Source: Candidatus Accumulibacter contiguus (lineage in GTDB: Bacteria; Pseudomonadota; Gammaproteobacteria; Burkholderiales; Rhodocyclaceae). From it: 64,000 nt of DNA. The position numbers were made by a program, and so were the translations under genes. Within the stretch, counting starts at the first letter, position 1. Each line of letters begins with the position of its first letter. Shown in pieces: positions 44,775 to 56,638 of the stretch. The stretch covers positions 62,001 through 126,000 of the forward strand of contig NZ_SPMX01000006.1 of assembly GCF_012940005.1 (NCBI RefSeq). The letters run 5' to 3'. A model generated the notes under the pieces. That model made no database searches and was not told the origin of the DNA. It worked only from the letters and a program-made list of their open reading frames with translations.

Positions 44775-45063
44775 CAACATTCCTCCCGCAGCAACGACTG
44801 CCCGAACGGCACGTGGTCCTGCTGCTGAATAATACATCCCCCGGTTTCCCTGGGTAATGTCGGAGCCTGATTGTTACGGTATCCAAATCCGGAAGCGGCG
44901 TGGGAATTTCGGCACCGCACTTTCGAGATTCTCATCGTGCATCTTATCAAAAGGGATGGTCTTTACTTGTATTGTTTGATTCCCCGATCCGCCTGCTGTT
45001 GCATCTTTCGTTCGATTGGTACAGCATCGCCGATTGGCCGAGAATAGAAAATAGGGGATGGAC

Positions 45064-47235
45064 ATGATTGCTGCGTTGTTGCGTCGCCTGAGTCTGATGA
45101 ATCGACTGACCGTGACCGCCGTTCTGGCCTTGCTGGCCATGCTGCTGATCGTCTGGGAAAGTGTGTGGTCGATGCATCACCTGCTTTACGAGGACCGCCA
45201 GGTCAAGACACGGCATCTGGTCGAGGTGGCGATCAGCGTCCTTGATCATTACCACGATCTGCAGAAAGCCGGCACGCTGAGCGAGGACGAAGCCAGACAG
45301 CAAGCGATCGCTGCGGTCAAGCGGATGCGTTATGAAAAGACCGAGTACTTCTGGATCAACGACCTCGGCAAGCCGGTGCCGAAAATGGTGATGCACTCGA
45401 CGGTACCAGCGCTCGATGGCAAGGTGCTCGATGAGAGCCGTTTCAACAAGGCCATCTCCCTGCAGGCCGGGCTGAGCGGCGACAAGATCAAGGCGGATGG
45501 CAAGAATCTCTTTGTCAGCTTCAACGAGGTGGTCGACAAGGCAGGCGAAGGCTATGTCGAATACCTCTGGCCCAAGCCTCTCGCAGGCGGCGGGGTGAGC
45601 AGCGAACTGTTTACCAAGCTGTCCTACGTCAAGAAGTTCGAACCCTGGGGCTGGGTCGTTGGTTCCGGCATCTACATTGATGATGTCGACCGGATATTCC
45701 TGGAAGAGGCGAAGCACAGCGTCTTACTGGCGATTGCTGCTACCTGCATCCTGCTGCTGAGCAGTTGGCTGGTGCGGAAAAGCATCGTCAGCGAGTTCGG
45801 TGGCGAACCCCGCCTCGCGTTGGGCGTGTCCAGCAGGATCGCCAGCGGCGACCTGACGCAGGAGGTACCCTTGCAAAGAGATGACCGGGACAGCCTCATG
45901 TTCGTTCTCGCGCACATGCAGAGCAGCCTCAAGGAAATGCTGCGCGCCATCTTCATCAACGCCAACAAGGTGCAGGCAAGTATCGAACGCCTTTCCGCCG
46001 AGTCCAACGCGATCAACCTGGCGACCCAGGTGCAGGCCGCTGCCGTCAAACACAGCCGTTTGGCGATTACCGACGTTTCGGCAAGCGTCGATGTGGTGAA
46101 TGGACTGGTACATGCAACCGAAGATGGCGCCAACGAGGTCGCGCGGCGCGCCCATGATGGCGCCAATGTAGCGGCAAAGGTTGCAGTCGAGATGCAGGCC
46201 ATCGCCGATACGGTCGCGGTCTCGTCGGAGCAGGTTTCCCGGCTGGTGGCCAGTACCAGCGAAATCGGCAACATGGCCAGGGTGATCAGGGAAATTGCCG
46301 ACCAGACCAATCTGTTGGCACTCAATGCAGCCATCGAGGCTGCCCGCGCCGGCGAACAGGGGCGCGGCTTCGCGGTCGTGGCCGACGAGGTCCGCAAACT
46401 CGCTGAGCGAACCAGCAAGGCGACGAGTGAGATCGGGAGCATCCTGCAGGGCATCCGGACCGATACCGAAAGTGCAGTCGAAGGCATGCAGGCGGCGGCA
46501 CCGGTAATCGCCAGCGGCGTCACGCAGGCCAACTCCGCCGCCGACACCTTGTATGCCATCGAAGAACAGGCGCAGGACACTCTCCAGAAAATGAAGGCGC
46601 TTTCGCAGGCGACCCGCGAGCAGACACAGCGCATCGAAGACATCGTCAGCAATGTCGATGAGGTGATGACCGCTTCAGGACAGACCGAGAATGTAATCAA
46701 ACAGTCGCTGCAATCGGCGGCCGACCTGGAACAGGCGTCCAGCGAGATGTTCTCGATGGTGCAACGCTTCAATATTGGCGAGTTGGACGGCAACGGACGG
46801 CAACCGGCGGCTCGTGCTCAGGCTGCGGTCAAGCCGCTGATGGCCTGGTCAAGTGCCTTGGCCGTGGGGCATGCGGAAATCGATCGCCAGCATCAGGTGT
46901 TGATCGAAATCGCCAACCGTCTGAACCATGCCATGCTCACCGGAGCAGGCCGGGTGGCCTGCGGATCGATTCTCGACGAACTCGTCAACTATACGGTCAA
47001 TCATTTCGGCTTCGAAGAGAAGCTGATGGAGAAGCACAGCTACCCAGACCGCGCGGCGCACCTGGCCGCCCATCGCAAGCTGATCGCAGAAGTCTCGAAG
47101 TTCAAGCGCCAGTATGAAGACGGAGGGGCAATCTCGGTCGAGCTGATGGGCTTCATCCGCGATTGGCTGGTCAACCACATCCTCAAGGTCGACCGGGCGC
47201 TGGTGCGTGATCTGAGCAGCCGGGGGCTGTCGTGA
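45064..47235 (+). CDS. Methyl-accepting chemotaxis protein with cache sensor and C-terminal hemerythrin domain
   Basis: ATG 45064 is favoured because AGGGG lies six bases upstream. ATG 45058 is also in frame. Residues about 10-30 are a membrane helix. A cache domain follows ([20 protein letters not shown]), then a second membrane helix near 220, HAMP and the methyl-accepting hairpin [10 protein letters not shown] (about residue 445). Residues about 595-720 are a bacteriohemerythrin domain with ligands in [20 protein letters not shown] and HILKVD. All seven iron ligands are present, so it should bind oxygen. It is an aerotaxis or redox receptor like DcrH. Confidence 0.93.
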
Positions 47236-49897: not shown

Positions 49898-50066
49898 TTC
49901 TTTGTCATTGACGGATGCCGTTTGCGGGTGCGATGTTCACAGCAAAGTGGATCCCAAGGCGATCCTCAAGCAAGCTATGCTTATGGATTCAGAAGAACCC
50001 GGCGCGCACCGACGACCTGGATGTCGTGCGACCGTGTCAAGAACGCAGTGACGACGAGGAGGAACG

Positions 50067-52316
50067 ATGAACAAACAGATCGTTGTTTGCATGGATGGCA
50101 CCTGGAACGATCCCATCGAACAAACCAATGTGTATCGCTTGTTCGAGATGCTGCCCGGCAGGGAACAATTTGTCGAGGAGCAGGGACCGATCCGCTCTCA
50201 TCTCAGCAAGCGCAATGAGGAACTCGCCGCTTTTTATCTGAAAAGTGTCGGCAACGGCGGGCGAACACAAGGATTGCTGGGCAGCACGCAGGGCATTGGT
50301 CTGCACGATTGCATGATCGACGCTTATGTACTGGTCTCACAGATGTATCAGAGCGGTGACAAAATCTGGTTGTTCGGTTTTTCTCGCGGGGCCTGGGCGG
50401 CCCGCAGCCTATGCGCCTTCATCGCCCGCACCGGCTTGATCTGGGCAGCCGAAGCCTACGACGACACCGCTGCCGACATGGCCGAAAAAATCTGGCTGGC
50501 CTTCAAGGAAGGCCGTGGCAAGAAACGCGGTGGGCGCTTCTGGAAATACCACGACGAAACACCGATCCGCATGATCGGTGTCTGGGATACGGTCGGCGAA
50601 TTTGGCGTACCGGAGTTCAATGGCCTGCGCATGCTCGACCGCGACGAGCTGCGCTTCCTGAAGTTTGCCGACCGCGAACTGAGCCCCCGCGTCGAGTACG
50701 GGCGCCAGGCACTGGCCATAGACGAAGAACGTTCCGACTTCCGGCCGACACTGTGGAACGAGCGCGCGGGGATCAAGCAGGTCTGGTTCCCCGGCGTGCA
50801 TGCGGATGTCGGTGGCGGTTACGAACACTGCGGACTCTCGGACATCTCCCTCGAATGGATGATGAACGAGGTCAACGACCTCGACGCCAGCCTGCGGCTA
50901 TTGCCCGCTCAACTCAGCCAGCCCCTGGCGCCCGATCCCCTGGAGGACCGGCACGATGAAACGCACAACCTGGTCTGGCGATCGCGGCCACACGAGGAAC
51001 GCAAGATTCCCGACGATGCCCAACTGCACCCCTGTGTCCTGTTGCGGCTGCAGGAGCGCTCCGACTATCGCCCCAAGGCACTCGAGGATGTGCCGGCCTG
51101 CGCCGCCTTCTACCCGAAAGACGGGCAGCCCCCCGAGGAAGAGCTGCAATCGGAGCGTGAGCCCCTGCCCTTCCGCAAGCTGCCGCTCGATGGCTCGACA
51201 CGCTTCCCGGCCTACGCGCACAAATGGTGGAACGCCTCCGGCGTCGAAGTCGATGCCGGCGAGAAATACCGTATCGAAGCCAGCGGCGCGTGGACCGACA
51301 AGGGAACTCCTTCGGGAGCCGACGGCTACGAATCCAAAGCCTGGTTCCTGCAACTTGCCGAAGGCAGCCGCCGCCTCGAAGAACGCCCGTGGTTTTCCTT
51401 GGTCGCCGCCATCCATCCGCGGCCCGATCTGGAAGCCAACAATCCCGACTCGGAGAACCTGTTCACCGGGCTGCTCGAAAGCGCCATCAGCGGCGTCGCG
51501 CGCATTGACGACGAGAGCAGCCTGATTGCCGCCCCGAATGGCTGCGAAATCGAGATCAGCGAATCGGGTTTCCTGTACTTCTTCGCCAACGACTCTCCTT
51601 ATTCTTACGGCAATAACAGCGGCTTCCTCACTGTCGAAGTCACCCGCATCCCCTGGTCGGCGAAAGAACACCAGAAAACCCAGCCCACGCCGCCAGCGCT
51701 GCCGGGTAGCCTGGACGTCAAGCTCTACTACACCCCCGGCACCTGCTCGCTGGCAGCGCACATCGCCCTGCGCGAGTGCGGCCTCGACTTCGAGCTGGTG
51801 CGCGTCGATATCCGCCAGCGCAAGCTGGCGGACGGCAGCGACTTCAGCGCCATCAACCCGAAGGGCTACGTACCAGTGCTCGAAATCGACGACGGTGTCT
51901 GTCTCACCGAAGTTTCGGCTATCGTTCAGTACATTGCCGACCGCCGGCCGGAGAGCGGCCTGGCGCCGCGTCCTTACACGCTAGAACGTTATCAGTTGCA
52001 GGAATGGCTGGCCTTCATCAGTTCCGAGCTGCACAAAGCCTTCACGCCGCTATTCAGGCCGGGCACACCGGAGGATTACCGGTTCCGCCTCCAGGAGAAC
52101 ATCGTCGCTCGCCTGGGCTATATCGCCACCCGCCTGTCGGACAGGGATTACCTCCTGGGCGACCAGTTCACCGTCGCCGACGCCTACCTGTTCACCGTCC
52201 TCGCCTGGAGCCGTGCAATAGGCATGGAAATCGCGCAGTGGCCGACTCTACTGGCTTTCCAGGAACGCGTCGGGCGCCGCCAAAGCGTCCGCGATGCCCT
52301 GGAAGCAGAGGACTGA
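50067..52316 (+). CDS. Fusion protein: DUF2235 (Tle1-like) hydrolase, lectin-like domain and beta-class glutathione S-transferase
   Basis: The 749-residue protein has three parts. Residues 1 to about 330 are a DUF2235 domain, related to type VI secretion phospholipases, with Ser106 in GFSRGAWAAR, Asp174 in GVWDTVGEFG and His245 in PGVHADVGGG as the likely triad. Residues about 385-535 resemble a PA-IL/LecA-like beta-sandwich (KYRIEASGAWTDKG, YFFANDSPYSYGNNSG). A Pro-rich linker leads to a complete beta-class GST (about 552-749) with YYTPGTCSLAAHIALRECGL and its Cys. The GST has no start codon of its own, so the fusion looks genuine. Function is unknown. Confidence 0.82.
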   Translation: MNKQIVVCMDGTWNDPIEQTNVYRLFEMLPGREQFVEEQGPIRSHLSKRNEELAAFYLKSVGNGGRTQGLLGSTQGIGLHDCMIDAYVLVSQMYQSGDKIWLFGFSRGAWAARSLCAFIARTGLIWAAEAYDDTAADMAEKIWLAFKEGRGKKRGGRFWKYHDETPIRMIGVWDTVGEFGVPEFNGLRMLDRDELRFLKFADRELSPRVEYGRQALAIDEERSDFRPTLWNERAGIKQVWFPGVHADVGGGYEHCGLSDISLEWMMNEVNDLDASLRLLPAQLSQPLAPDPLEDRHDETHNLVWRSRPHEERKIPDDAQLHPCVLLRLQERSDYRPKALEDVPACAAFYPKDGQPPEEELQSEREPLPFRKLPLDGSTRFPAYAHKWWNASGVEVDAGEKYRIEASGAWTDKGTPSGADGYESKAWFLQLAEGSRRLEERPWFSLVAAIHPRPDLEANNPDSENLFTGLLESAISGVARIDDESSLIAAPNGCEIEISESGFLYFFANDSPYSYGNNSGFLTVEVTRIPWSAKEHQKTQPTPPALPGSLDVKLYYTPGTCSLAAHIALRECGLDFELVRVDIRQRKLADGSDFSAINPKGYVPVLEIDDGVCLTEVSAIVQYIADRRPESGLAPRPYTLERYQLQEWLAFISSELHKAFTPLFRPGTPEDYRFRLQENIVARLGYIATRLSDRDYLLGDQFTVADAYLFTVLAWSRAIGMEIAQWPTLLAFQERVGRRQSVRDALEAED

Positions 52317-52420: not shown

Positions 52421-54455
52421 TCACTGGCAGCGGACAATGGGTGCCGATGCGCTCAGACGACGCGCCTGCGCGACGATATTCGCGACATGGATACCGAAGA
52501 ATTCGTAGAGTTCGGCGGCTGGCGCCGATTCTCCGAAGCGGTCGATACCGATCACGGCACCGTTTGGCCCGACGTACTTCCACCACAGATCGGGATGTCC
52601 GGCTTCGACCGCAAGTAACGGGATCGATGGCGGCAGCACCGTCTGGCGGTAAGCCAGGGGTTGCAGATCGAAGCGTTGGGTACAGGGCATGGCGACGACG
52701 CGCGCAGCGATTCCTTCCCGAGCGAGAACGGCCTGGGCGTCCAGGGTGAGACTGAGTTCCGAGCCGGTTCCGATCAGCACGACACTCGGCGTTCCGCCAT
52801 CGGCCTCGCGCAGCACGTAGCCACCCAGCCGGATGCTGGCCATCTGCTCGGCGCTGCGCGGCAGTGCCGGCAGGTTCTGCCTCGACAACAGGAAGCATGA
52901 GGGACCATCGTGTCGCTCAAGCGCTGCGCTCCAGGCCACCGCGGTCTCCATGGCATCGGCCGGGCGCCAGACGTCGAGACCCGGAATCAGCCGCAACGCA
53001 GCCGCATGCTCGATCGGCTGGTGCGTCGGGCCATCTTCACCAAGACCAATCGAATCATGCGTGTAGACCATCAACTGCCGCAGCTTCATCAGTGCCGCGA
53101 GACGGATTGCATTGCGCGCATAATCCGAGAACACCAGGAAAGTTGCCGTGTAGGGAATGAAGCCGCCATGCAGAGCAATGCCGTTGGCGATCGCGGTCAT
53201 GCCGAATTCGCGTACGCCGTAGTGGATGTAGTTGCCGCCAGCCTCCCGGTTCGCAGGCCGGGTGCCGCTCCAGTTGGTCAGGTTTGATCCGGTCAGGTCG
53301 GCCGAACCACCCAGCAGTTCGGGCAGCAGCGGAGAAATCGCTTCGATGGCGTTCTGCGAAGCCTTGCGCGTGGCGACGGCAGTGGTCCGGGTCGTCCATT
53401 GGGCGAGCAGCGCGGTCACATGTTCCGGCCAGTCGGCGGGTAGTTCCCCTCGCATCCGGCGTTCGAATTCGGCGGCCAGTTCGGGATAGGCGGCACGATA
53501 GGCGGCGAAGTTCGCTTCCCAGGCATATTCCGCGGCTTCTCCCCTGACCCTTGCATTCCAGCCGGCGCGCACGTCGGCTGGCACTTCGAAAGCGGCGAAA
53601 GGCCATTCGAGCTGGCGGCGGGTATTGGCGATCTCTTCGGAACCCAGGGGGGCGCCGTGCACATCGTGTGTGCCCCCCTTGTTCGGGGAACCGAAACCGA
53701 TCATCGTCTTGCAGCAGATCAGCGTCGGCCGACCGGTTGGGGTCCTGGCGATACGGATTGCGGCCTCGATCGAATCGGCGTCATGACCGTCGCAATGGGG
53801 TACCACGCGCCAGCCGTAAGCTTCGAAGCGTTTTGGCGTGTCGTCGGCAAACCAGGGCTGTACGTGACCATCGATCGAAATATCGTTGTCGTCGTAAAAA
53901 AACGATCAGCTTGGACAAGGACAAGCGCCCGGCCAGCGAGCAGGCCTCATGCGAAACGCCTTCCATCAGGCAGCCATCCCCGATAAAGGCGTAGGTGTAG
54001 TGGTCGACGATCGTGTGCCCTTCGCGGTTGAAGGTCTCGGCCAGCAGCCTTTCGGCCAGGGCCATGCCCACTGCGTTGGCAAGGCCCTGGCCGAGTGGTC
54101 CAGTGGTCGTTTCAATGCCGGGGGTGATGCCGAATTCGGGGTGCCCAGGGGTTTTTGAGTGCAGTTGCCGGAAGCGCTTCAATTCGTCGATCGGCAGATC
54201 GTAACCGCTGAGGTGCAGCAAGGCGTAGATCAGCATCGACCCATGTCCGTTCGAGAGCACGAAGCGGTCACGGTCACACCATCGGGGATTGGCCGGGTTG
54301 TGTTTGAGGTGATGGCGCCAGAGGACCTCGGCGATGTCTGCCATTCCCATCGGCATCCCGGGGTGACCGGAATTCGCAGCCTGAACAGCGTCAATGGCGA
54401 GGAAGCGCAGCGCATTGGCGCAGCGGCGGCGGAATTTTCGGGATTCGGTGGGCAA
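52421..54455 (-). CDS. tkt: Transketolase, interrupted by a frameshift
   Basis: A TTG start at 54455 is preceded by AAAGGAG. The thiamine-diphosphate enzyme moves two-carbon units in the Calvin cycle and pentose phosphate pathway. Motifs include [16 protein letters not shown], the ThDP-binding [13 protein letters not shown] and, in the second part, [19 protein letters not shown]. After about residue 184 the frame changes: LIVF should continue [10 protein letters not shown], which lies one base off. Removing one base from plus-strand A7 at 53896-53902 restores a 677-residue protein that runs to 52421. It is the last gene of a cbb-type cassette. Confidence 0.92.
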
Positions 54456-55555: not shown

Positions 55556-56638
55556 TCAATCGTCCCTGAACAGGGTTCGCGTCGAAAAGAGTGGCGACCG
55601 GTACGGCTGATCTTCTCCGGTTTCGTGCTCACGGTGGTAGCGTTCGATGCGCTCTACCTCGTCGCGCGAACCGAGAATGACCGGCACCCGCTGGTGCAGG
55701 CTGGTCGGCTGCACATCGAGAATGCGTTCCTTGCCGGTCGATGCCAGGCCGCCGGCCTGGCCAACGATCATCGCCATCGGATTGGCTTCGTACATCAGTC
55801 GCAATCGCCCCGATTTGGACATGTCCTTGCTATCGCGCGGGTACATGAAAACGCCGCCGCGCATCAGAATCCGATGGACCTCAGCGACCATCGAAGCCAC
55901 CCAGCGCATGTTGAAGTCCTTGCCACGAATGCCCGTCTTGCCTGCCAGACACTCGCTGACGTAGCGTTGCACCGGCGGCTCCCAGAAACGCTCGTTGGAA
56001 GCATTGATCGCAAACTCGCGGGTTTCCGGTGAAATCACGAGATGCGGATGCGTCAGCAGGAACTCGCCGATGTTACGATCGAGTGTGAACCCATACACGC
56101 CGCTGCCAACGGTGAGCACCAACATCGTCGATGGACCGTACAGTGCGTAGCCAGCGGCAACCTGGCGACTGCCAGGCTGCAAGAAATCCTCTGCAGTCGG
56201 CGCGCCGGAACTACAATTCTCGGGGCAACGCAGCACTGAAAAAATACTGCCGACCGACAGGTTGACGTCGATGTTCGACGAACCATCGAGCGGGTCGAAG
56301 ACCAGCAGATACTTGCCGCGAGGATGTTCAGCGGGAATCGGGTAGATGTCCTCCATTTCCTCCGACGCCATCGCGGCCAGATGGCCACCCCATTCACAAT
56401 GGTGAGTGAAAGCCTGGTTGGCCAGCACGTCGAGTTTCTTCTGGCTTCGCCCTGGACGTTTTCACTGCCCTCATCGCCCAGCACGCCGGCCAGCGCCCCC
56501 CCGCGAGACGCCCTGTGCAATGGCCTTGCACGAGCGCACGACGTCGCTGATGAGCATCGAAAAATCGCCGACCAGCGCTGGATTACGGCGCTGTTCCTCG
56601 ATCAGGAATTTGTTAACGTTGGTACGTCCGCATAACAT
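55556..56638 (-). CDS. fbp: Fructose-1,6-bisphosphatase class I, interrupted by two frameshifts
   Basis: ATG 56638 (TGGAG upstream) begins [19 protein letters not shown]. The main part has [20 protein letters not shown], the metal-site motif of class I enzymes, and [18 protein letters not shown]. Two indels interrupt it. Near residue 45 the plus-strand C7 run (56496-56502) has one base too many, and near residue 65 the expected EAQKKLDV lacks one base (about 56443-56444). Together they keep the overall frame and 360 codons. It is first in the cassette and divergent from cbbR. Confidence 0.9.

Follow-up and report, generated by a model that had tools for sequence, protein, structure and literature searches.

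A one-frame fusion of a DUF2235 hydrolase, a probable lectin-like domain and a beta-class glutathione S-transferase in Candidatus Accumulibacter

Accumulibacter is important for phosphate removal from wastewater. The 64,000-nucleotide stretch of Candidatus Accumulibacter contiguus analysed here (assembly GCF_012940005.1, contig NZ_SPMX01000006.1, positions 62,001 to 126,000; hereafter the window) belongs to a genome of 5.02 Mb in 167 contigs with a completeness of 98.7% and contains a gene whose product joins a DUF2235/Tle1-like alpha/beta-hydrolase, a beta-sandwich domain, a linker and a beta-class glutathione S-transferase (GST), in this order. The closest named loci over residues 1-548 are found in Candidatus Accumulibacter metagenome-assembled genomes (A. 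vicinus, 86%; A. necessarius, 79%; A. aalborgensis, 77%). The features of the gene are listed below, where the "20 fusions" are those of 19 Accumulibacter carriers and of 'Dechloromonas sp. SSD3' (L038), and the stand-alone GstA counts refer to 39 distinct proteins (40 rows, in which L031 and L173 are the same gene).

50067..52316, + strand: whole fusion gene, a single unbroken frame of 749 aa plus stop
50057..50062, + strand: Shine-Dalgarno-like AGGAGG, 4 bases upstream of the ATG, read from the sequence
50073..50870, + strand: DUF2235/Tle1-like alpha/beta-hydrolase domain, aa 3-268 (Pfam PF09994, T6SS_Tle1-like_cat, E 7e-61)
50382..50384, + strand: nucleophile Ser106 in GFSRG; Ser in 20/20 fusions
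50586..50588, + strand: acid Asp174 in GVWDTV; Asp in 17/20 fusions, Glu in 3/20
50799..50801, + strand: catalytic His245 in GVHADVGGGY; His in 20/20 fusions
51171..51656, + strand: middle beta-sandwich, probably PA-IL/LecA/PllA-like, aa 369-530 (Pfam, PDB profile, Foldseek)
51651..51716, + strand: variable linker, aa 529-550, mean identity 0.50
51717..52313, + strand: beta-class GST of the GstA family, aa 551-749 (NCBIfam NF007831, 242.3 bits against a cut-off of 198)
51744..51746, + strand: Cys560, equivalent of GST Cys10; Cys in 11/20, Ser in 8/20 and Gly in 1/20 fusions; Cys in 38/39 stand-alone GstA
52032..52034, + strand: His656, equivalent of GST His106; His in 19/20 fusions and 39/39 stand-alone GstA

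The initial annotation of the window had claimed a genuine three-domain fusion in one frame, and this claim is borne out by a protein search of 101 genomes from 74 genera (28 Accumulibacter genomes and 73 genomes of other genera), in which the full-length fusion was found with no internal stop in 18 of the 28 Accumulibacter genomes, the window's own included. Two of the full-length carriers (G010 and G016) are single-contig assemblies, and in a nineteenth carrier (G002) residues 1-657 reach the end of a contig and another contig carries a stretch matching residues 661-749. Among the matches listed for the 73 genomes of other genera none spans both parts; the sole genome found with the fusion outside the genus is that of SSD3, whose protein has the same architecture at 72% identity. 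The same annotation had asked for the exclusion of a lost stop codon, here considered as a sequencing or assembly error, and the consensus of this contig may indeed be imperfect, since nearby Calvin-cycle genes on it are frameshifted. However, a lost stop codon is excluded because the full-length fusion recurs across the genus, in 17 further genomes as well as in SSD3, with the frame intact through the linker in all 18 full-length fusions and with single-contig assemblies among them, so that the artefact explanation is already refuted and its probability negligible. The fusion is almost certainly real and maintained. Among plasmid records 865 match the query, none of them with one place covering 80% of it, and the eight matching phage records all match by the GST part alone.

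The N-terminal domain matches PF09994 over the entire profile (positions 1-287 of 287) with 206.5 bits, above the curated cut-off of 27, and a profile spanning the hydrolase and middle domains matches the Tle1-type structures 9j3f, 4o5p and 6sjl, with whose triad motifs those of the fusion align. The Ser/Asp/His triad that had been described as intact is present in the window as S106, D174 and H245. The same alpha/beta-hydrolase domain with the same Ser-Asp-His motifs is known from Tle1/DUF2235 phospholipase effectors (P. aeruginosa Tle1, 4o5p; Aeromonas Tle1AH; Xanthomonas TleB), and for TleB the accessible part of the publication reports a Ser240-Asp280-His347 triad and phospholipase activity (PMC12421835). 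The hydrolase of the fusion is likely to be catalytically active.

The middle domain carries the motif ANDSPYSYGNNSG at residues 507-519. Its profile gives two matches only in a search of the PDB up to E 10, namely PllA (E 0.058) and a PA-I-type lectin (E 0.42), and Foldseek run with a model of the domain (pLDDT 62) places a PllA-like lectin at ranks 1, 2 and 4; the best E value is 3e-3 and no match falls below 1e-3. A sub-threshold PA-IL match is present in 3 of 12 members, and the matches returned by VIA-align include many unrelated jelly-roll chains. The likeness to the galactophilic lectins LecA and PllA is weak in sequence and fold and is best over the C-terminal Asp...Asn-Asn motif; unlike these lectins, the domain lies below the Pfam cut-off, is larger and has a helix in the model, and its sugar binding is putative. 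We take it, with reservation, as a probable LecA/PllA-like beta-sandwich. The earlier term 'lectin-like' is best taken as probable rather than proven.

In the GST part, the Pfam GST_N and GST_C families match within residues 551-743 (best E 5e-13) and solved beta-class GSTs match with a best E of 1e-68 (2gdr/2dsa). The match to GstA (1a0f of E. coli, 2gdr/2dsa) is full-length, but the fused copy differs from these enzymes in that it is not free-standing, has no start of its own and has Cys10 replaced in 9 of the 20 fusions. Its first codon, GTC at 51717, aligns exactly with Met1 of stand-alone GstA, in agreement with the earlier remark that the GST lacks a start codon; the residue at this former start is Val in 12, Ile in 4 and Leu in 2 fusions and is still Met in 2. 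The Cys-containing N-terminal motif noted at the outset is intact in the window. The description of the GST as complete holds for the window protein, which has the whole domain with Cys10 and His106, but not for the fusions at large, given the nine that have lost the active-site Cys. The GST tree unites these nine Cys-less fused GSTs (95/91). At position 99 every one of the 20 fusions has Ala or Gly, where 30 of the 39 stand-alone GstA proteins have Asn. As these alignments read, conservation across the fusions is firm at the hydrolase site and looser at the GST site. Val at position 66 of the GST was not retained as a mark of damage, as it is also found in 6 of the 39 stand-alone proteins.

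Pairwise ratios of nonsynonymous to synonymous substitution (dN/dS) among the 18 full-length genes have medians of 0.15 for the hydrolase, 0.20 for residues 269-378, 0.11 for the lectin-like domain, 0.38 for the linker and 0.21 for the GST (Nei-Gojobori counting; from 121 pairs for the linker up to 153 of 153). Synonymous sites are near saturation and the values are measures of constraint, not exact rates; read in this way, they place all three domains under purifying selection.

Trees and conservation support a single origin of the fusion: a DUF2235-lectin gene received, in frame at its 3' end, a gstA gene from the Accumulibacter line. A branch of the GST tree (100/98) separates the 20 fused rows from the rest, of which the stand-alone GstA of G021 (L045), 74% identical to the fused GST, comes first and that of G057 second. 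In the hydrolase-lectin tree the fused rows form one group (91/90; 87% of bootstrap trees, with a long-branch warning) beside two unfused orthologues. The evolutionary distances of the two halves are correlated (r 0.875; 0 of 5000 permutations as high), as expected if the halves travel together. The two unfused orthologues come from another genus of the family (G056, L043; G154, L042). They share 54-55% identity with the fusion and end directly after the lectin domain, no GST open reading frame (ORF) lies in their flanks as far as these are covered by sequence, and one of the two genomes has a GstA-like gene (42%) on another contig. A search for relatives in which a stop codon separates a DUF2235 gene from a GST gene, the observation named at the outset as refuting the fusion, thus yielded an unfused gene with no adjoining GST and no refutation; this unfused gene is likely to represent the state before fusion.

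Unfused proteins with the same two domains in the same arrangement (mostly 500-550 aa) are found elsewhere in the same order; the two orthologues are the nearest of them, and Accumulibacter itself has GST-less hydrolase-lectin paralogues at about 32% identity, all of which differ from the fusion in that they stop after the LecA-like domain. Among the other DUF2235 ORFs examined none carries a GST (0/66 and 0/48 in two sets, with some loci counted twice), and a LecA-like domain is present in 29 of the 66 and in 8 of the 48, in 6 of these 8 weakly. The ORFs were taken from loci found in searches of 101 relatives and of 395 family, 399 order and 398 phylum genomes, from selected stretches and from 20 places picked for long frames, with matches lacking an extracted locus left out. 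DUF2235-LecA-like paralogues are listed for 5 of the 9 fusion-less and 3 of the 19 fusion-carrying Accumulibacter genomes, small numbers that perhaps reflect mutual replacement.

In the ppk1 tree the first-branching Accumulibacter genome (G018; 95/94) carries the fusion, and eight of the nine fusion-less genomes of the genus form one clade (100/99), the ninth being G005. The simplest reading is a fusion of the same age as the genus, followed by two losses, with the proviso that some fusion-less genomes are incomplete (G019, 83%; G012, 88%). It counts against this age that the G018 fusion is not first-branching in either the GST or the hydrolase-lectin tree, and transfer within the genus may for this reason have taken place. 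By its ppk1, SSD3 falls outside the genus (74% identity to that of the window genome, versus 89-100% inside the genus). Both gene trees nevertheless nest its fusion among those of Accumulibacter, so that SSD3 probably received the entire gene by horizontal transfer. This SSD3 gene (L038, 8001-10250) carries Gly in place of Cys10 and Asp in place of His106, so that the GST site of the likely transferred copy appears to have decayed, and its 8 kb flanks have three ORF families in common with the G004 flanks, some distance off.

Several papers (PMC3482391, PMC7245790, PMC12421835) regard proteins with DUF2235 as toxins, either of type VI or polymorphic, in their accessible text, and DUF2235 is also named in PMC9736018. 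The initial annotation had likewise hinted at a type VI effector, which would make the fusion a Tle1 phospholipase toxin with the GST as extra cargo. The membership of the catalytic domain in the Tle1-like Pfam family would fit this explanation, as would three fusion carriers (G014, G025 and G027) that possess both TssC (PF05943) and Hcp (PF05638). However, in searches in which E. coli was the one control genome positive for both markers, these were the only 3 of the 28 Accumulibacter genomes with either protein (L063 and L064 belonging to G014 and G025), and neither TssC nor Hcp was found in the nearly complete window genome, in 25 of the 28 genomes of the genus overall or in 16 of the 19 fusion carriers; these 16 include the two single-contig genomes, G010 and G016, but also two of lower completeness, G002 (87%) and G003 (72%). 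The three positive carriers each have Ser at GST position 10. According to the accessible text of the respective papers, known DUF2235 effectors adjoin DUF4123 adaptors and immunity genes, in one case VgrG (PMC7245790, PMC12421835), and P. aeruginosa Tle1 works with VgrG, an adaptor and an immunity protein and has a membrane-anchoring module as its C-terminal part (PMC13133936), where the fusion has the LecA-like domain and the GST. In contrast, a Pfam scan of the nine window neighbours, with LysE, OmpA, MFS and transketolase among them, found no VgrG, DUF4123 adaptor or immunity gene (no such models were run on the other loci). Comparison of the flanks of all 20 fusion loci (1 to 9,066 bases per side) found no gene that adjoins the fusion across clades. 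Common flanking families were confined to close relatives, namely the clade of G003, G014, G016, G023, G025 and G027, in which carriers with and without a type VI secretion system (T6SS) are alike in this respect, and the pairs G010/G026 and G002/G007, apart from four other pairs with single or few common families and a gene family 4-5 kb off that G018 has in common with three of the six-genome clade. As a general account the type VI effector is contradicted by these data and extremely unlikely, and in most carriers the fusion is very probably not such an effector.

We favour, with moderate confidence, the reading that the fusion is a cytosolic acyl-ester hydrolase whose GST part would serve mainly for dimerisation and glutathione binding. 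The product would be a single cytosolic protein, because the hydrolase match starts at residue 3 and leaves no room for a leader. Beta-class GSTs dimerise and bind glutathione, and the GST part would therefore be expected to dimerise, pairing two hydrolase-lectin arms, and to bind glutathione, while the hydrolase would cleave acyl esters; its substrate would most likely be a lipid or glycolipid, which the sugar-binding-like domain may bring to the active site. Since the GST Cys is replaced in nine fusions and the hydrolase Ser and His in none, GST thiol chemistry seems dispensable in some members; that the GST acts mainly as a dimeriser or glutathione-binding module and not as a transferase is a tentative view, to which we give slightly less than even credence. 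Several observations weigh against the favoured reading. The window GST retains Cys10 and His106, and Cys is kept in 11 of the 20 fusions, which fits an active transferase; Ser at position 10 also occurs in 1 of the 39 stand-alone GstA proteins; and the nine Cys-less members are not one group in the hydrolase-lectin tree, so that the Cys may have been lost more than once. On the hydrolase side, Asp174 is replaced by Glu in three fusions. The Pfam PA-IL match of the middle domain is sub-threshold (E 0.045; 14.2 bits against a cut-off of 22.5), and VIA-align, run on the pLDDT 62 model, puts PliG (Z 8.1) above the PllA-like lectin (Z 6.0). The PliG fold was nevertheless not adopted for this domain, because the sequence profiles favour PllA/LecA. 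A full-length AlphaFold2 model built with 12 sequences reached a pLDDT of 44 and was discarded as too poor to show the domain arrangement.

The main rival of the cytosolic hydrolase is a coupled detoxification enzyme, in which the GST would conjugate an electrophilic ester with glutathione or release glutathione and the hydrolase would cleave the same molecule, the two sites working in tandem. The window protein has two apparently intact active sites, the GST part is under purifying selection with His106 all but invariant, and such coupling is more plausible for Cys-keeping members such as the window protein. However, Cys10 is replaced far more often in the fusions (Ser in eight, Gly in one) than in stand-alone GstA (1 of 39), and the Asn that prevails at position 99 of the latter is found in none of the 20 fusions. 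Beta-class GSTs can function without Cys10, so its replacement is not decisive against detoxification, which we regard as somewhat unlikely. A further possibility, which appears very unlikely, is that of a conflict protein triggered by contact or stress (a polymorphic toxin or abortive defence) that would hit the cell's own membrane, with the GST sensing redox state or glutathione. DUF2235 is a toxin domain in polymorphic toxin systems, as stated in the accessible part of the source (PMC3482391), the presence of the fusion is patchy, its neighbourhoods change and its transfer to SSD3 is likely, and unfused DUF2235-lectin paralogues stand tail to tail with a large related ORF in 4 of the 8 Accumulibacter loci examined. 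Yet PADLOC found no match to a defence family, the nearest window neighbours of the fusion are of other kinds, and the fusion is retained in most of the genus.

Paralogue loci with a tail-to-tail large ORF (unfused DUF2235-LecA-like): L047, 4114-6453; L048, 170-2506; L052, 67-1899; L054, 49-2382

The genomes of these four loci (G017, G001, G012 and G019) all lack the fusion, and the large ORF in L047 has nSTAND1 and FGE-sulfatase matches by Pfam, suggestive of a conflict or defence setting.

An extension of the favoured cytosolic hydrolase, which we consider quite unlikely, is that this phosphate-accumulating genus recruited a toxin-type (Tle1-like) hydrolase to ordinary cytosolic duties, controlled by a fused dimer that binds glutathione; hydrolysis of lipids or glycolipids would then follow the thiol state of the cell in the anaerobic-aerobic cycle. 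In any case, a conserved DUF2235 protein with a GST in a mostly T6SS-less genus points to another use of this fold, and the fusion offers one gene for testing such a non-toxin use. The order of events that can be taken from the trees, from a two-domain gene through the joining of gstA to the later replacement of the Cys in some members and a probable transfer to another genus, also makes this gene a good example of how domains fuse and of the partial release of a fused enzyme.

The combination of DUF2235, lectin-like domain and GST is new, and its component families are all known. The earlier statement that no protein with this combination had been described is not contradicted within open-licence PubMed Central, where titles and abstract starts describe no DUF2235-GST protein, nothing was found on Accumulibacter with DUF2235, and Accumulibacter together with 'glutathione S-transferase' yields only a bioremediation review and a fermented-foods review. 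The jacalin-related lectins with a DUF2235 partner domain (PMC5536079) likewise combine DUF2235 with a lectin but belong to another lectin family, and no GST is named in the accessible part of that paper.

Upstream of the fusion, on the same strand, lies a LysE exporter gene, and downstream, on the opposite strand, a transketolase gene. A promoter scan found no sigma-70-like promoter site; its terminator-like matches (5 versus 2.7 expected) were not used. The transketolase gene (window 52421-54455, - strand) is in two frames, each half of which matches its part of the Pfam transketolase models; by eye, the break falls at an A run (T on the coding strand) near 53896 and reflects either a sequencing error or a pseudogene. 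In the fructose-bisphosphatase gene (55556-56520, - strand) the Pfam match begins at profile position 66, with the first 65 positions missing in frame. The missing part, by eye, continues in another frame (ORF 56053-56520), the second Calvin-cycle frameshift of the contig. The window further encodes, at 45058-47235, a methyl-accepting chemotaxis protein with a cache sensor domain and a C-terminal hemerythrin domain.

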